Below the pieces are notes generated by a model. It was not told the DNA's origin. It worked only from the letters and a program-made list of their open reading frames with translations, and ran no database searches. The position numbers and the translations under genes were made by a program. A DNA stretch of 64,000 bases from Gallionella sp. (GTDB lineage Bacteria; Pseudomonadota; Gammaproteobacteria; Burkholderiales; Gallionellaceae), in NCBI GenBank assembly GCA_003153155.1, contig PLWV01000017.1:223932-287931 (forward strand), read 5' to 3'. Below, piece by piece: positions 6,866 to 54,579 of the stretch. Position 1 is the stretch's first letter; the number at the start of each line of letters is the position of its first letter.

Positions 6866-9058
6866 CTAGGGGCCCCAGTGAATTGCCCCATGCAAAGCAG
6901 TAGTGCCGCCCTCGCAGTTTTGTTCGAAGCGCAGGTCGATCGCTGTGAGCGTGCCGTTTACGTAAGTGACGCTGTCGACGGCGAACCAGCCTTGCAGGGT
7001 ATTGCAGCCGCGCCCATCACCATACCAAGAGAGGCCACCCAACACTGGATTATTAAACGGGTAGCGCTTAAGACCCGGGTAATAACCGGGTTGAAGTTGG
7101 CTGATCGTATTCATGGTTTGGAAGTTGCCAGTCCACAGTTCGTTTCCATTGACACCAACAGAAAGGAGGCCTCCACTCGCGCTGACGGAAAGTATGGCGG
7201 TCACCGGAGTATAAGTGTAGGTTCGACCCAAGCCGATGTAATCGCCAGCATCGCTCTGCAGATACACGAAATTGCCGATAGCCGGAGTTGAACCCGAGGC
7301 CGGCTGCCAAAGTCCGGCAGGCGGCGGGTTGACCGGTCCTGTTGACGAGCCATCCGCAAAGGTCTGAAATGTCCACGAATAGTTCGCACTCATCGCAGTA
7401 CCCGTCAAGTCTTTAACGTCCGTTGTGATCGTAGCCCTATAAACTGTGTTGGTTGTTAAAGATGCCGAGGGAGTAAATGTAGCAGTATTGCCGCTGTATG
7501 TAACCAATCCAGAAACTGGTGTCGTACCACCCATCAGTGTAAATGAATTATTTGTCACAGTGACGGGATTCATTGGCGTGCTAAAGGTGGCAGTAATGGC
7601 GCTATCAAGTGCGACAGCATAGGCGTAAGGAACCGGGCTGGTCGATAAAACTGTTGGCGTTGCAGGCGCAAAGGTCTGAAATGTCCACGAATAGTCCGCA
7701 TTCATCGCATTACCCGCCAAGTCTTTAACGCCCGTTGTGATCGTGGCCGTATAAACTGTGTTGGTTGTTAAAGATACCGAGGGTGTAAATGTTGCAGTTG
7801 TGCCGCTGTACGTTACCGTTCCGGAAACAGGGGTTGTGCCGTCCATCAGGGTGAATTCAGCAGTTGTGATCGTTGCAGGATCAACTTGCTCGCTGAATGT
7901 CGCGGTAACGGCGCTATTGATAGCAACAGCAGAAGCTGAATTAACCGGGCTTGTGGATATCACTGTCGGCGGAGTGGTGTCAGGCGCAGAGGTCTTAAAT
8001 TGCCACAAATAGTTCGAACTCAGCGCATTACCCGCGAGGTCTTTAACTCCAGTGGTGATCTTGGCCGTATACACTGTGCTGGGAGACAGGAACACCGCGG
8101 GTGTAAATGTGGCCGTCCCGCTGCTGTATGTTACCGTCCCAGAAACCGGCGTCGTACCGTCCATTAGGGTAAATGAAGCGGCAGTCACCGTGGCAGGATC
8201 TATTGCCTCGCTGAATGTGGCGGTAATGGTTGAGTATACCGGGACAGTTGTTGAAGTATTGGGCGGGTTTGTCGATAACACCGTCGGGGGTGTGGTATCA
8301 GGCAGCGCGGTCAAAACAAGATGTGTCGTGGAACCATTCGCAGCTTGAAGATCTACTGAAACAGGGATCAGGGTGCCATCGGCCTTAATTCTGGACCTGT
8401 CTTGCTCGGTAGATGTCAAACTGCCGCTGAAGTCATAGGATTTATCAATCATGTTGACGATCGCGGTATTGGCGGTATCGGGCTCTATCACATAACTGAT
8501 ATCGTCATGACCAGTAGAAAAGTTCTGCGTAGAATCGGTAGAATAATTTATTGTGCCTATCGTACCGATATCTCCAACCTTGACCGAGACAGGTATGCTT
8601 GGAGGTGTCGCGTATACACCATAATTACCGCTGGAATCGATGGTACCTAGCGGGTCGTAATTGCTGTCGTAATAATCGGTTGAAGTGCTGTATAGGGAAG
8701 GCGGGATGCAATTTGGCAAATTCAGGTTTGCTGCATTTACGACAGATAACGCGGCAACGTTTCCGAAAGTTGCAGGAAGTGGGGTTGATATATTAATGTT
8801 GGCGGTACCGCTACAGGTACCTGAAACGGAGAAATTTATTGAAGAGCCTTGTTGAACTGACGCCTTCATTCCACTTTGAAGCGGGAATGCCAGAGTTGAG
8901 GTCACGGGCCCTGTTCCGCCACTGCCACCACCTCCACCGCAAGAGGTAAGCGCAATCGCAGCCAAGCAGCCAACAAATGCGAGTTTGATTTGCCGTGCAA
9001 GAAACCTGCACGCGAATGCGCGCAAGTTTGGAATCATCGAAACATTAAACCCCTTCAT
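6866..9058 (-). CDS. Large lipoprotein with three bacterial Ig-like (Big_5/SbsA-type) domains
   Basis: 730 residues. A lipobox (ALTSC, Cys about residue 40) is followed by a Gly/Ser linker, so the protein is probably lipid-anchored. Residues about 255-365, 365-468 and 468-568 are three tandem Ig-like domains of the SbsA/Big_5 type (PPTVLSTNP, ITATFSEAIDP, FTLMDGTTPVSGTVTY, KDLAGNAL). The C-terminus (about 570-730) has the motif RGCNTLQGWFAVDSVTY and FEQNCEGG, a cysteine-paired beta domain known from many uncharacterized secreted proteins. It stands alone, convergent with 5734 and downstream of rimO. A role in surface adhesion or matrix binding is inference only. Confidence 0.75.
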   Translation of the reverse strand: MKGFNVSMIPNLRAFACRFLARQIKLAFVGCLAAIALTSCGGGGGSGGTGPVTSTLAFPLQSGMKASVQQGSSINFSVSGTCSGTANINISTPLPATFGNVAALSVVNAANLNLPNCIPPSLYSTSTDYYDSNYDPLGTIDSSGNYGVYATPPSIPVSVKVGDIGTIGTINYSTDSTQNFSTGHDDISYVIEPDTANTAIVNMIDKSYDFSGSLTSTEQDRSRIKADGTLIPVSVDLQAANGSTTHLVLTALPDTTPPTVLSTNPPNTSTTVPVYSTITATFSEAIDPATVTAASFTLMDGTTPVSGTVTYSSGTATFTPAVFLSPSTVYTAKITTGVKDLAGNALSSNYLWQFKTSAPDTTPPTVISTSPVNSASAVAINSAVTATFSEQVDPATITTAEFTLMDGTTPVSGTVTYSGTTATFTPSVSLTTNTVYTATITTGVKDLAGNAMNADYSWTFQTFAPATPTVLSTSPVPYAYAVALDSAITATFSTPMNPVTVTNNSFTLMGGTTPVSGLVTYSGNTATFTPSASLTTNTVYRATITTDVKDLTGTAMSANYSWTFQTFADGSSTGPVNPPPAGLWQPASGSTPAIGNFVYLQSDAGDYIGLGRTYTYTPVTAILSVSASGGLLSVGVNGNELWTGNFQTMNTISQLQPGYYPGLKRYPFNNPVLGGLSWYGDGRGCNTLQGWFAVDSVTYVNGTLTAIDLRFEQNCEGGTTALHGAIHWGP
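7355..8296 (-). repeat. Three ~310-bp coding repeats (Ig-like domains)
   Basis: The Ig-like domains are highly similar at DNA level, for example the segments around aaggtctgaaatgtccacga at about 7361 and 7670 are nearly identical. This implies recent internal duplication and makes the copy number prone to change by recombination. Confidence 0.75.
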
Positions 9059-20950: not shown

Positions 20951-21130
20951 TATAACCAATGACTTGGCTGTCGTTAACCAGCGGCTTATGTCACCGTACT
21001 TTGGTGACTTAGCCGAATGGCTATGCAAAGCTTTGGACAGCCTATAACCAGCCACTTGGTTGATGTCTTTTGTCAACCCAGTGGAATGGCTAGTTGTTTC
21101 ATCAGTCAGATGGCTAGTAGCTTCACTAGT
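20951..21130 (-). repeat. Double-stem hairpin repeat cluster A
   Basis: At least two full units and one partial in minus orientation. Unit at 21041-21104: outer stem CCACT/AGTGG, inner stem GGTTGA/TCAACC, terminal AACTAG/CTGGTT. Unit at 20973-21026: CGGCT/AGCCG and GTCACC/GGTGAC. The loop reads AAAnnAC-like in all. The cluster lies between htpX and the membrane-protein gene and overlaps the track ORF start at 21060, which is therefore not a real start. Confidence 0.85.
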
Positions 21131-23278: not shown

Positions 23279-24175
23279 ATGAATGAAAAACTGTTACACC
23301 TGCTGGGCGGCAAAGAAGATCTCTACCCAAAAAATCTGGAGAAGCAGTATCCGCGTGTGGTGAACCGTATCGCTGACCTGTGGCATTCAAAGGAAATTGA
23401 TGCTTACTTCACGGATCTGATGACGGATACCCGCGATGGCTCACGACATGGGTTCCCTAGCGAGTTGGCATCCGAAATTTTCTCGTTGAGCTTGGTGCAC
23501 GCAAAATTGCGAGATCAGGAACAGCAAGGCGCGGCTGTGGTTAATCCCTGGGACGATGTGGAAGCATCGAAAAAAGCCGCCATCGAACAGCAAGGCTATG
23601 CTTTTTCCCCCAAGGGTTTCATCCAGTCAGCCGAAAAGGGCGACCGCAATGCCGTTGCGTTGTTCTTGAGCAGCGGCGTGGATATTGATACGCGTGATGA
23701 GCACGGCTGGACACCGCTGATGATATCAACCTTCAATGGCAAGGAAGAAGTTGCAATCTTTCTCATCCTCAACGGCGCCGACGTCCACCCCAAGGATACG
23801 GCAGGTTATGGGCCGCTGCACTGGGCCGCATTCAACGGTTACAGCAACATAGTGAAACTGCTCGTGGAAAAACGCGCCAATGTGAACGAACGCAGCAACC
23901 ATGGCTGGACACCACTGCTGCAAGCTGCCACTCGCGGCCACCTGCTGACTGCCGGGCAACTGATTGCCGGTGGCGCCGACGTCAATCTCGCCAGCAACGA
24001 CGGCTGGACGCCACTGCACAAGGCCGCCGCCAACGGTCATACCGAAGTAGTCAAACTGCTGCTCGCCAAGGGTGCGGACCGCGGTATAGAATATCATAAT
24101 GGCACAACGCCCTTGACCCTTGCCACCAAAAACAAGCATGAAGAGATCGTGGCCCTGCTCACCGCAAACAGCTGA
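23279..24175 (+). CDS. Ankyrin-repeat protein
   Basis: 298 residues. The N-terminal ~110 residues are helical and without recognised family (MNEKLLHLLGGKEDLYPKNL, VNRIADLWHSKEIDAYF). From about residue 112 there are five ankyrin repeats with the TPLHxAAxxGH pattern, such as DEHGWTPLMISTFNGKEEVA, GYGPLHWAAFNGYSNIVKLL, and NDGWTPLHKAAANGHTEVV. No signal peptide, so probably cytoplasmic. It begins 18 bp after mdh and may be cotranscribed. Ankyrin repeats bind proteins; partner unknown. Confidence 0.85.
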   Translation: MNEKLLHLLGGKEDLYPKNLEKQYPRVVNRIADLWHSKEIDAYFTDLMTDTRDGSRHGFPSELASEIFSLSLVHAKLRDQEQQGAAVVNPWDDVEASKKAAIEQQGYAFSPKGFIQSAEKGDRNAVALFLSSGVDIDTRDEHGWTPLMISTFNGKEEVAIFLILNGADVHPKDTAGYGPLHWAAFNGYSNIVKLLVEKRANVNERSNHGWTPLLQAATRGHLLTAGQLIAGGADVNLASNDGWTPLHKAAANGHTEVVKLLLAKGADRGIEYHNGTTPLTLATKNKHEEIVALLTANS

Positions 24176-24189
24176 TGAAACTCCTGATG

Positions 24190-24567
24190 AGACTACTGGT
24201 GAAACAACTAGCCATCCCACTAAGCAACCAGAAAACGGTTGCCAAGTGGTTGGTTATAGCCATCTGACTGATGAAACAACTAGCCAATCCACTAAGCCAC
24301 CAAAGAACGGTGGCAAAGTGGCTGGTTATAATCCAGCAAAATACGCTGGGTAAGTCATTGATGAAACTACTAGCCATCTGACTAGGCTAGCAAACGACGC
24401 CAGCCAAGTCATTGGTTATAGGTTGTCAAAAGCTTTGCATAGCCATCTGACTATGTTGGCAAACGCGTTGCATAGCCATTCGGCTAAGTCACCAAAAGAC
24501 GGTGACATAAGCCGCTGGTTAACGCCAACTAAGTCATTGGTTAACGACAACCAAGTGGCTGGTTATA
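24190..24567 (+). repeat. Double-stem hairpin repeat cluster B
   Basis: The largest cluster of the ~50-bp family, filling most of the 472 bp between the ankyrin gene and the MEMO gene. Unit 24206-24255: AACTAG, CCACT, GCAACC-loop-GGTTGC, AGTGG, TTGGTT. Unit 24278-24330: GCCACC/GGTGGC inner stem with the same outer stem. Unit about 24368-24420: TGACT/AGTCA outer stem. Unit about 24469-24522: CGGCT/AGCCG and GTCACC/GGTGAC. Partial units fill the rest. No open reading frame of note is present. Confidence 0.88.
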
Positions 24568-25474: not shown

Positions 25475-26122
25475 ATGTTAGATGAACAAGGCAAAGTGTT
25501 ACTACCGATCGCGCGCGCCGCTATTTCGCGCGTGTTGAACGTGTCACACACAGCAGATGAATCCGCGCCGTGGCTGGCTGAGCATGGAGCATGCTTCGTC
25601 ACACTCACACAATACGGCGAGTTGCGCGGCTGCATCGGCTCGCTGCAAGCGCACCGTTCATTGCTCGACGATGTCAAAAGCAATGCCGTGTCCGCTGCCT
25701 TGCGCGATCCGCGTTTCACGCCGTTGAGCGTGGAAGAACTCGACATCACCACAGTCGAGATTTCGCTGCTCTCTACTACACTGGCGATGGAGGTTCGGGA
25801 CGAGGCCGATGCGCTGGCGCAACTCCGCCCCGGCGTGGACGGCATCATTTTTGAATACGGCAGATATCGCAGCACCTTTCTGCCGCAAGTATGGGAGAAC
25901 CTCGCACAGCCAAGGGAATTTCTTGCCATGCTCAGACGCAAGGCCGGGCTACCCGATGACTTCTGGGCGGAAGATGTGAAACTATCGCGCTATAGCGTGA
26001 CCAAATGGAGCGAGTCCGAAAAACTTTTGAAGGAACCACTAGCCAATCGATTAGACGAGCAAACAACACTCGCCAAGTCGCTGGTTATGACCGGGCACCC
26101 GAAGGAGCACCAACATGGATGA
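25475..26122 (+). CDS. amrA: AMMECR1-domain protein (AmmeMemoRadiSam system protein A) with repeat-derived C-terminus
   Basis: 215 residues. The AMMECR1 fold is clear: GACFVTLTQYGELRGCIGS, SALRDPRFTPLSVEEL, and VWENLAQPREFLAMLRRKAGLPDDFW. The family domain ends near residue 185 (KLSRYSVTKWSE). The remaining ~25 residues (EPLANRLDEQTTLAKSLVM) are encoded by one unit of the hairpin-repeat family found at 21.0 and 24.2-24.6 kb, so this tail is a recent addition. It overlaps the next gene by 8 bp. The role of AMMECR1 proteins is unknown. Confidence 0.9.
   Translation: MLDEQGKVLLPIARAAISRVLNVSHTADESAPWLAEHGACFVTLTQYGELRGCIGSLQAHRSLLDDVKSNAVSAALRDPRFTPLSVEELDITTVEISLLSTTLAMEVRDEADALAQLRPGVDGIIFEYGRYRSTFLPQVWENLAQPREFLAMLRRKAGLPDDFWAEDVKLSRYSVTKWSESEKLLKEPLANRLDEQTTLAKSLVMTGHPKEHQHG
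26034..26088 (+). repeat. Double-stem hairpin repeat unit C, inside coding sequence
   Basis: Single unit: ACTAG, outer stem CGATT/AGTCG (one G-T pair), inner CGAG/CTCG with an A-rich loop, ending CTGGTT. Same architecture as clusters A and B. It is wholly inside the AMMECR1 gene, in frame, and is followed at 26091 by ccgggcacccg, a fragment shared with repeat F. Confidence 0.8.
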
Positions 26123-37939: not shown

Positions 37940-37952
37940 GATGTTTCTTCTT

Positions 37953-38787
37953 GGTAATTAGGGCGTTTCGTAACCAGTGTATCCTTGGAGATACTTATGG
38001 TTACTGGGGTTCAAACAGTATTTAGTTGTGCGACCAACTTTTTGAACGGTCGCAAGTGTGTTTTTTGCGGTTCTTTCAAGACCGTGAAGACCGCACGAAG
38101 CTATGTTAAATGCATGCTGTGTGGCAAGCAAAAAAGCCTGACCAAGCTGCGTCGCGAGATTGCCATCTTGCAGGGGTTTTACCAACAGCAACCCGCCTAT
38201 CGACTGGCCAGCGATCTGGGCGTGGATGCCAAGACGGTAACCCGGGTTTATCAGCGGTTGCGCATCGCGCTGTTTCATACCGCCGAACTCGAAGGTGCCA
38301 AGCTGTCTGGCGAGATCGAGTTGGATGAGTCCTACTTCGGCGGAGTCCGCAAGGGTCAACGTGGGCGTGGCGCAAGAGGTAAAAGCATCGTATTCGGCCT
38401 GCTGGAGCGGGATGGGAGGGTATACACCAAGGTGGTGGAGTCGGTTTCGGCACAGACGCTCATGGCTCATATCCAGGCGCATACCCGCAAGGGATCGGTC
38501 TACTACACCGATGCGTTTCGTGGATATCAGTCGCTGCAACGATATGGAAAACATATGGTGGTTAATCATTCCAAAGGCTTTGTGAGTAAAAAGACCAAAA
38601 ACCATATCAACGGCATCGAAGGGTTTTGGAGTTATGCTAAACATATTCTGTACAACTATCGCGGCGTATCGAGGTATCACTTTCCCATGTATCTGAAAGA
38701 AATCGAATACCGTTACAATCATCGGCAGGAAAATATTTTCAAGCTCTTCCTGAAGATCTATTTTGGTTACGTTTCGCCCTAATTACC
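37953..38787 (+). mobile_element. IS1595-family (ISXO2-like) insertion sequence, complete
   Basis: 835 bp. Terminal inverted repeats GGTAATTAGGGCG-TTT-CGTAACCA (left) and GGTAATTAGGGCG-AAA-CGTAACCA (right, reverse complement) match at all but three bases over 24. Both ends are flanked by the 8-bp direct repeat TTCTTCTT (37945-37952 and 38788-38795), the target-site length expected of IS1595 elements. The intact TSD and ORF indicate recent insertion. Confidence 0.92.
37997..38782 (+). CDS. IS1595-family transposase (ISXO2-like DDE)
   Basis: Start at MVTGVQTVFSC, with GGAG 6 bp upstream. 261 residues. An N-terminal zinc ribbon (KCVFCGSF and KCMLCGKQ) and HTH (QPAYRLASDLGVDAKTVTRVY) precede the DDE_Tnp_IS1595 domain: the first Asp in ELDESYFGGV, the second in YYTDAFRGY, and NHINGIEGFWSYAKHIL with the final acidic residue. 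All catalytic residues are present, so it is probably active. Confidence 0.92.
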   Translation: MVTGVQTVFSCATNFLNGRKCVFCGSFKTVKTARSYVKCMLCGKQKSLTKLRREIAILQGFYQQQPAYRLASDLGVDAKTVTRVYQRLRIALFHTAELEGAKLSGEIELDESYFGGVRKGQRGRGARGKSIVFGLLERDGRVYTKVVESVSAQTLMAHIQAHTRKGSVYYTDAFRGYQSLQRYGKHMVVNHSKGFVSKKTKNHINGIEGFWSYAKHILYNYRGVSRYHFPMYLKEIEYRYNHRQENIFKLFLKIYFGYVSP

Positions 38788-38813
38788 TTCTTCTTTAACA
38801 ATAAAATGACAAT

Positions 38814-54396: not shown

Positions 54397-54579
54397 AAAT
54401 ATCAACTTCGGTGGTTAATATAACTCCGGTAGTCTGGACAGAAATCTACGAGTTTTAATGGTTGTGAATCGCAGTACCAAGTTCATCGGCGGTTACATTA
54501 TCCCCAGAGCTTCACACCGAGCTGTTACCGGCTCCGCATGTCCAGAGAACGGTTGATGGAACAACCGTTTTCATCTCTG

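Follow-up and report, generated by a model that had tools for sequence, protein, structure and literature searches.

A nested 60-bp palindromic repeat in Gallionella with filled and empty insertion sites

Positions 24190–24567 of the window, as we call the whole 64,000-nt stretch analysed here, carry a series of short hairpins whose stems change sequence and stay paired, which raises the question of what these repeats are and how they came to occupy the locus. The original prediction described them as dispersed single hairpins; analysis of the region and of related genomes revealed instead that the clusters are nested and that the units are mobile, inserted into themselves and into other palindromes.

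Unit architecture and nested clusters

The repeat unit consists of a 12-nt leader (consensus TGATGAAACNAC) and a 48-nt three-stem hairpin, 60 nt in total. Stem 1 (TAGCCA/TGGTTA), the outermost, comprises 6 bp with one G.U and is separated by a 2-nt/1-nt asymmetry from stem 2 (NNACT/AGTNN, 5 bp); a 2x2 loop follows, and then stem 3 (6 bp), which is capped by a 7-nt A-rich loop. The 3' end of the leader reads CNAC, and the opposite strand has GTNG 3' of the stem. A second, loop-type subtype, whose leader is GCTTTGCA, is found chiefly within the loop of the unit itself; other palindromes, such as GGGCAGGTTT..AAACCTGCCC, harbour it too. The inner stems and the loop of the predicted plan were recovered, but the stems number three rather than two, with TAGCCA/TGGTTA outermost, and the 12-nt leader had been missed; the AACTAG and CTGGTT ends were correct as sequence but are actually part of the leader junction and of the outer stem.

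A covariance model built from the units (R1), run with filters off, gave E-values of 8e-12 to 3e-18 in the window. Seven complete units are present: four at 24205–24523 (+), two at 20973–21096 (−) and one at 26036–26089 (+), in line with the expectation of several loci and both orientations; the last of these had not been noted in the original prediction. Together with their surroundings they resolve into the following features.

20953–21128, minus strand: cluster A, an outer unit holding two nested units; 176 bp absent from the relative G079, which has a clean empty site; folding z-score −4.2
24173–24208, plus strand: three tandem 12-nt leaders (TGATGAAACTCC, TGATGAGACTAC, TGGTGAAACAAC), from sequence
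24209–24256, plus strand: unit U1, 48-nt three-stem hairpin TAGCCA..TGGTTA; model R1, 76.0 bits, E 7e-18
24257–24268, plus strand: left arm of an interrupted outer unit O1 (TAGCCATCTGAC), opened at C^T by a nested insertion; from the fold and the insertion rule
24269–24328, plus strand: nested 60-bp element, leader 24269–24280 and hairpin U2 24281–24328; model R1, 77.7 bits
24329–24358, plus strand: rest of O1 (stem 3, loop and right half of stem 2) to AAGTCAT; from sequence and the arm pairing TGACT/AGTCA
24359–24418, plus strand: 60-bp element, leader 24359–24370 and hairpin U3 24371–24418; model R1, 71.9 bits
24419–24565, plus strand: right part of a unit, GGTTGTC..GACAACC-AAGTGGC-TGGTTA, whose matching left arm is lost; from nesting in the fold
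24432–24439 and 24465–24472, plus strand: leaders (GCTTTGCA and GCGTTGCA) of two successively nested loop-type units in the loop of 24419–24565; from the fold and the loop-type list
24473–24521, plus strand: inner hairpin of 24419–24565; model R1, 71.3 bits
26028–26087, plus strand: 60-bp element, leader TGAAGGAACCAC and 48-nt hairpin; empty site in G079; model, 53.4 bits

Cluster A is the cleanest nesting case. Its outer unit (TAGCCATCTGAC .. AAGTCATTGGTTA) holds a leader-type unit at the GAC^TAGG junction (model match 21043–21096) and a loop-type unit with leader GCTTTGCA in the outer loop (20973–21027). Cluster B has the same build and is partly decayed, its last arm (AGTGG) being without a left partner; folding revealed that 24190–24567 is mostly a nested array, not a row of separate hairpins (z-score −7.6). 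The element at 26028–26087 is inserted in frame close to where an ORF (25475–26122) ends, and sits within a copy of another repeat (CCGAAAAACTTTTGGCCGGGCACCCGA). As anticipated in the original prediction, these arrays are not CRISPRs, since they are nested hairpins without unique spacers.

Covariation was analyzed at two scales. Among 6 units, 98% of cells were paired versus 86% in shuffles, changes on both sides numbered 15 versus 5, and pairing was destroyed when the partner arm was slid. In the larger test on 107 distinct copies, drawn from several genera, 97.2% of cells were paired, 12 of 17 pairs covaried, and 272 cells were changed on both sides, versus 78 ± 9.5 after shuffling (none of 500 shuffles reached 272) and at most 40 in slid controls; this bears out the predicted repeat family with kept folding, compensatory changes and an A-rich 7-nt loop. 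All three stems stay paired through two-sided changes, and the stem-1 G-U wobble is one-sided in 99 of the 107 rows and tells the strands apart. The base pairing of the units is maintained. However, because arm-to-arm copying in imperfect palindromes likewise restores pairing, kept pairing alone is no proof of RNA selection; it may reflect transposition needs or arm-to-arm correction in replication, and a cellular RNA function is not required. From the earlier suggestion of selection for a folded RNA or single-stranded DNA, the maintained pairing is retained, whereas the loci are recent repeated insertions and an RNA function is not implied.

Filled and empty sites and the insertion rule

Comparison with the close relative G079, whose DNA is 88–96% identical in the compared region, revealed that cluster A (176 bp) and the 26028–26087 unit (60 bp) are both missing exactly, with intact target DNA left. 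Four further sites showed exact 60-bp differences, two of them nested: GATTCCCGCC^TGCGCGGGAAT (right flank also given as TGCGCGGGAATGAC); CGGATTCTGGCC^TTCGGCC; TAGCCATCTGAC^TAACCC at the locus pair L105/L148, where a nested state like that of U2 in O1 is seen directly as an indel; and AAC^TAGCCA, before an older unit, at L103/L142, where a new leader and hairpin were placed between the old leader and its hairpin. A composite filled/empty case was found at TTC^TAG. The filled/empty junctions all read Y^(TGATGAAACNAC + hairpin)^T, leader first. Across 143 leader-bearing copies, the base preceding the leader was Y in 142 (C in 115, T in 27) and the base following TGGTTA was T in 135; once copies with AC before the leader, most of them nested or tandem, were left out, Y preceded 67 of 68 (P = 5e-19). 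There was no target duplication beyond at most a T shared at both ends, and a 12-bp duplication considered at cluster A (TAGTGAAGCTAC / TAGCGAAGCAAC) was rejected, since other sites have none and the leader belongs to the element.

Most of the compared sites differ between very close relatives; the units are mobile and have moved recently. In these pairwise comparisons, the single orientation of the rule and the sites within genes and repeats suggest insertion rather than precise loss as the direction. For a small palindromic repeat that moved recently, there are now filled sites with empty counterparts, precisely defined ends and a rule for the target, and the spread of bacterial palindromic repeats, as well as their compensatory changes, becomes directly testable.

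The units enter their own copies at three points, namely the leader/hairpin junction (AAC^TAG), the stem 2/stem 3 junction (GAC^TA) and CAT^TGGTTA; clusters therefore grow as nested hairpins, and in the folds many left arms pair with distant right arms and enclose whole units. The stepwise building of nested palindromes in bacterial DNA can thus be followed in these units. Tandem leaders were common among 173 leader-bearing sites, with 38 double cases, 9 with three or more and one with six. Loss of a hairpin between its flanking TAGCCA direct repeats would leave such 12-nt leaders behind as scars, and tandem leaders may log past insertion events at a site.

Insertion points fell into the loops of other palindromic repeats more often than expected. 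With flanks re-paired at random as the control, 7 of 93 external sites lay between perfect arms of ≥8 bp (control 0.33, maximum 2) and 20 of 93 between perfect arms of ≥5 bp (control 7.8, maximum 15), sites in long palindromes being only a minority of the external ones. Recurrent targets were ATTCCNGNC..GCNGGAAT and CCCTCTCC..GGAGAGGG palindromes, the CTTT^TGGCCGGGCACCCG repeat, which the 26028 copy of the window entered, and CATCCCAAC^TGCTGCGTTG. Only 31 of 139 units lay inside ORFs of ≥150 codons, compared with 81% of random positions, as expected if most insertions into genes are lost. In one complete single-contig relative, the replication strand bias was 22:12 (P = 0.12), a weak and non-significant leading-strand trend.

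A second dispersed repeat, about CCGAAAAGCTTTTGGCCGGGCACCCGA, was observed at 26010–26110 of the window, at L040 (6415–6496) and at L048 (3003–3102). It is a target of the 60-bp element as well as an insert in the element's own loops, and at L153 it replaces the loop where G079 has a loop-type unit.

Distribution of the units

The source genome (G000, 2.75 Mb, from the iron-oxidiser family Gallionellaceae) contained at least 163 model matches among those listed, obtained by scoring 150 of 739 candidates; an unselected stretch held 28 units in 284 kb, which extrapolates to ~270 copies per genome. The covariance search proposed in the original prediction has thus returned further copies in abundance. 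Within the genus, at least one match was present in 58 of 60 other genomes, and copy numbers ranged from 0 (G023, G036) and 1 (G080, G029, G031) to well over 100, with 28 in G072, 34 in G064, 109 in G022 and 146 in G070. Named contigs with the motif were Gallionellaceae, Gallionella and Nitrosomonadales bins. A restriction to one genus, suggested by the first search of relatives, was overturned by an order-wide sample, in which 29 of 399 genomes and 12 of 158 genera had matches, with weaker members in several other families of the order; the leader CTGATGRAAC and the overall plan are preserved in these distant members, whose outer stems differ (e.g., TAAGCG/TGCTTA).

No Rfam family matched at the gathering threshold (the best sub-threshold hit, P11, scored 15.9 bits against a threshold of 70), in agreement with the prediction that this is not a catalogued RNA family. 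Neither plasmid records, phage records nor viral contigs contained a match to the unit, and searches of the literature on Gallionella repeats found none, nor any paper describing the unit family.

Mode of movement and known relatives

We consider it likely that the unit is a non-autonomous, strand-specific 60-bp hairpin element moved in trans via single-stranded DNA. An enzyme supplied in trans would recognise the folded single strand by its leader, its hairpin and the strand-marking one-sided G.T wobble of stem 1, and would cut at YT where loops lie exposed as single strands, such as on replicating DNA; the element would then be joined into the cut loop, as in HUH/REP or attC-type single-stranded DNA transactions. 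An excised single-stranded circle is predicted to carry the joint TGGTTA-TGATGAAAC. The unit is a small mobile palindromic repeat, and there is an open chance of a distinct mechanism. More tentatively, the units might represent a distinct class of bacterial mobile DNA, in which minimal single-stranded hairpins transpose hairpin-into-hairpin-loop at Y^T and stack into nested, tree-like palindromes, through an enzyme outside the Y1, IS110, reverse transcriptase and integron-integrase families or through host replication and repair only.

Each of these four families was missing from at least one copy-rich genome, and therefore none is shown to be the mobiliser; incomplete assemblies or past gene loss offer a possible escape for each single family. 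Reverse transcriptase (RVT_1) was found in none of twelve copy-rich genomes (G000, G079, G064, G070, G022, G072, G073, G082, G084, G013, G007 and G027), by which a group II-type element mobilised by reverse transcription was rejected, and the IS110 (DEDD) recombinase in none of G000, G079, G064, G072, G073 and G007, by which an IS110/bridge-RNA element was rejected as well. Among the linked enzymes that had been proposed, reverse transcriptase is accordingly excluded as obligatory and Y1/RAYT is unlikely to be so. The genes next to copies showed no recurrent neighbour. A separate match to the Group II intron RNA (D1-D4-7) lies at 54426–54568 (−) of the window, in a genome in which no reverse transcriptase was found, and would represent an orphan remnant or an ORF-less intron.

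In behaviour, the units come closest among bacterial elements to REPs tagged with GTAG or CGTC. Like the units, REP/REPIN elements with their RAYTs (PMC3733652, PMC8266576, PMC2817692) are high-copy, small, strand-asymmetric hairpins, whose stems vary by compensatory changes between subfamilies; some families occur in palindromes (PMC3733652) or ORFs. TnpAREP cuts at CT (PMC8266576), to which the Y^T rule of the units may correspond. REPs are, however, 20–40 bp long with a single stem and a GTAG/CGTC tag at one end, whereas the unit is 60 bp long, carries a 12-nt leader, has internal loops between its three stems, routinely nests in itself and does not depend on a Y1 gene. Movement as a REP-type element by RAYT/TnpAREP, with the single-stranded hairpin as substrate and cleavage at CT, is an unlikely reading. 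In its favour, the hairpin size class and the single-strand asymmetry are similar, Y^T resembles a CT cut, some REPs are reported to enter palindromes and ORFs as well (PMC3733652, PMC8266576), and the source genome has three Y1_Tnp genes. No units flank these three Y1 loci, no Y1_Tnp was found in G064 (complete, one contig), G070, G022 or G072 despite their 28–146 copies, and the presence of Y1 was unrelated to copy number (P = 0.62). The GTAG expected 5' of the stem is missing, GTNG being placed 3' of it and on the other strand; two defining features of the REP/RAYT system, a 5' GTAG/CGTC tag and a RAYT gene in the genome flanked by REPs, are absent here. The usual transposase explanation fails for the unit.

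Copy number is not convincingly tracked by any enzyme class, targets are hairpins, where replication stalls, and close relatives exchange neighbouring arms and whole hairpins. These observations would fit an origin with no dedicated enzyme, in which copies spread when replication or repair slips or switches its template from one hairpin to another, with covariation as arm-to-arm correction of imperfect palindromes. We nevertheless regard this origin as doubtful. Without a specific nuclease it would be difficult to explain why the 60-bp ends are exact, why Y^T is constant, why the unpaired leader is conserved and why unrelated unique sites are entered.

Integron attC sites, which are recombined by the integrase, share with the unit a folded single-strand hairpin and strand-marking irregularities, but the unit was rejected as an attC because it has neither RYYYAAC..GTTRRRY ends nor cassettes and its ends are Y^T..TGGTTA^T, not G^TT. 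Handling of the units by an integron integrase as attC-like single-stranded hairpins at secondary sites is, in our judgement, quite improbable. Such recombination likewise uses one folded strand, and an integron integrase (TIGR02249 above cut-off) was found in 14 of 16 copy-rich versus 3 of 9 copy-poor genomes (P = 0.01 by Fisher's test, corrected neither for relatedness nor for testing four families); the gene is absent, however, from the complete G064 (34 copies) and from the 83%-complete G070 (146 copies). The cut at Y^T (A^R on the other strand) differs from the G^TT of attC, and the attC-like sites beside integrase genes are canonical (GCCTAAC..GTTAGGC), unlike the unit. Of ten integrase-bearing stretches, only that of the source genome has units, two of them kilobases off. 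As an observation in its own right, a true integron integrase occurs widely across the genus (L279–L288; G000:C8:2361–3302 and others), in some genomes together with canonical attC-like sites.

The least probable reading, and one very hard to sustain, is that cellular selection acts on a structured RNA, either a small RNA or a 3'-UTR element, and retains the copies for regulation. Covariation, strong folds and the location mostly outside ORFs would suit it, but most compared sites differ in very close relatives, copies range from 0 to >100 within the genus, units also lie within ORFs and other repeats, and no Rfam family matched; the units may have an RNA role as a by-product.

The units also recall several other systems. 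Rickettsia palindromic elements, compared here by their description (PMC3733652), are likewise small and palindromic and sometimes in frame in genes, as is the 26028–26087 element; their hosts are unrelated, and the units, 31 of 139 of which are inside ORFs, lie mostly outside them and have a defined leader and the Y^T rule. Short, mobile-looking hairpins whose enzyme is unknown are also described in Volvox organelles (PMC2670323), where they are inserted in one another, and in sponge mitochondria (RHE; PMC2800124); the units differ from both in being bacterial, with exact ends, a leader, a target rule and filled/empty pairs. IS elements in REP loops (PMC1525189; IS621/IS110, PMC11208160) similarly enter palindromic repeats with a CT core, whereas the unit carries no gene, and G000, G079 and G064, among others, have no IS110 recombinase. 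A MITE was rejected, since the unit is asymmetric, with a leader on one side only, and shares at most a T, as opposed to terminal inverted repeats and a target duplication of several bp.

Other repeats and mobile elements were observed alongside the units. At 1280–2110 of L052, a Y1 (RAYT-like) gene has a near-copy of another gene's start (ATGAACCTCCTTCGCCTGTCCCTCAATTTGCTGCGCCGCGACTGG) on either side, an arrangement that looks like insertion with a large duplication. Comparison of L045 (11260–11395) with L113 (925–931) revealed another repeat, an insertion of ~130 bp (ACGCCGCCAGACACTCGCCC..GGTCTTGGCGCAGG) that G079 lacks; this repeat resembles sequence upstream of the RAYT gene of L051 and is probably that transposase's own REP family. 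Within the window, a transposase-like ORF with ~21-bp inverted repeats (TAATTAGGGCGTTTCGTAACC / GGTTACGTTTCGCCCTAATTA) at 37950–38790 resembles an IS1595-type insertion sequence, and at 7355–8226 a 312-bp unit is repeated in tandem (2.8 copies) within a long minus-strand ORF.
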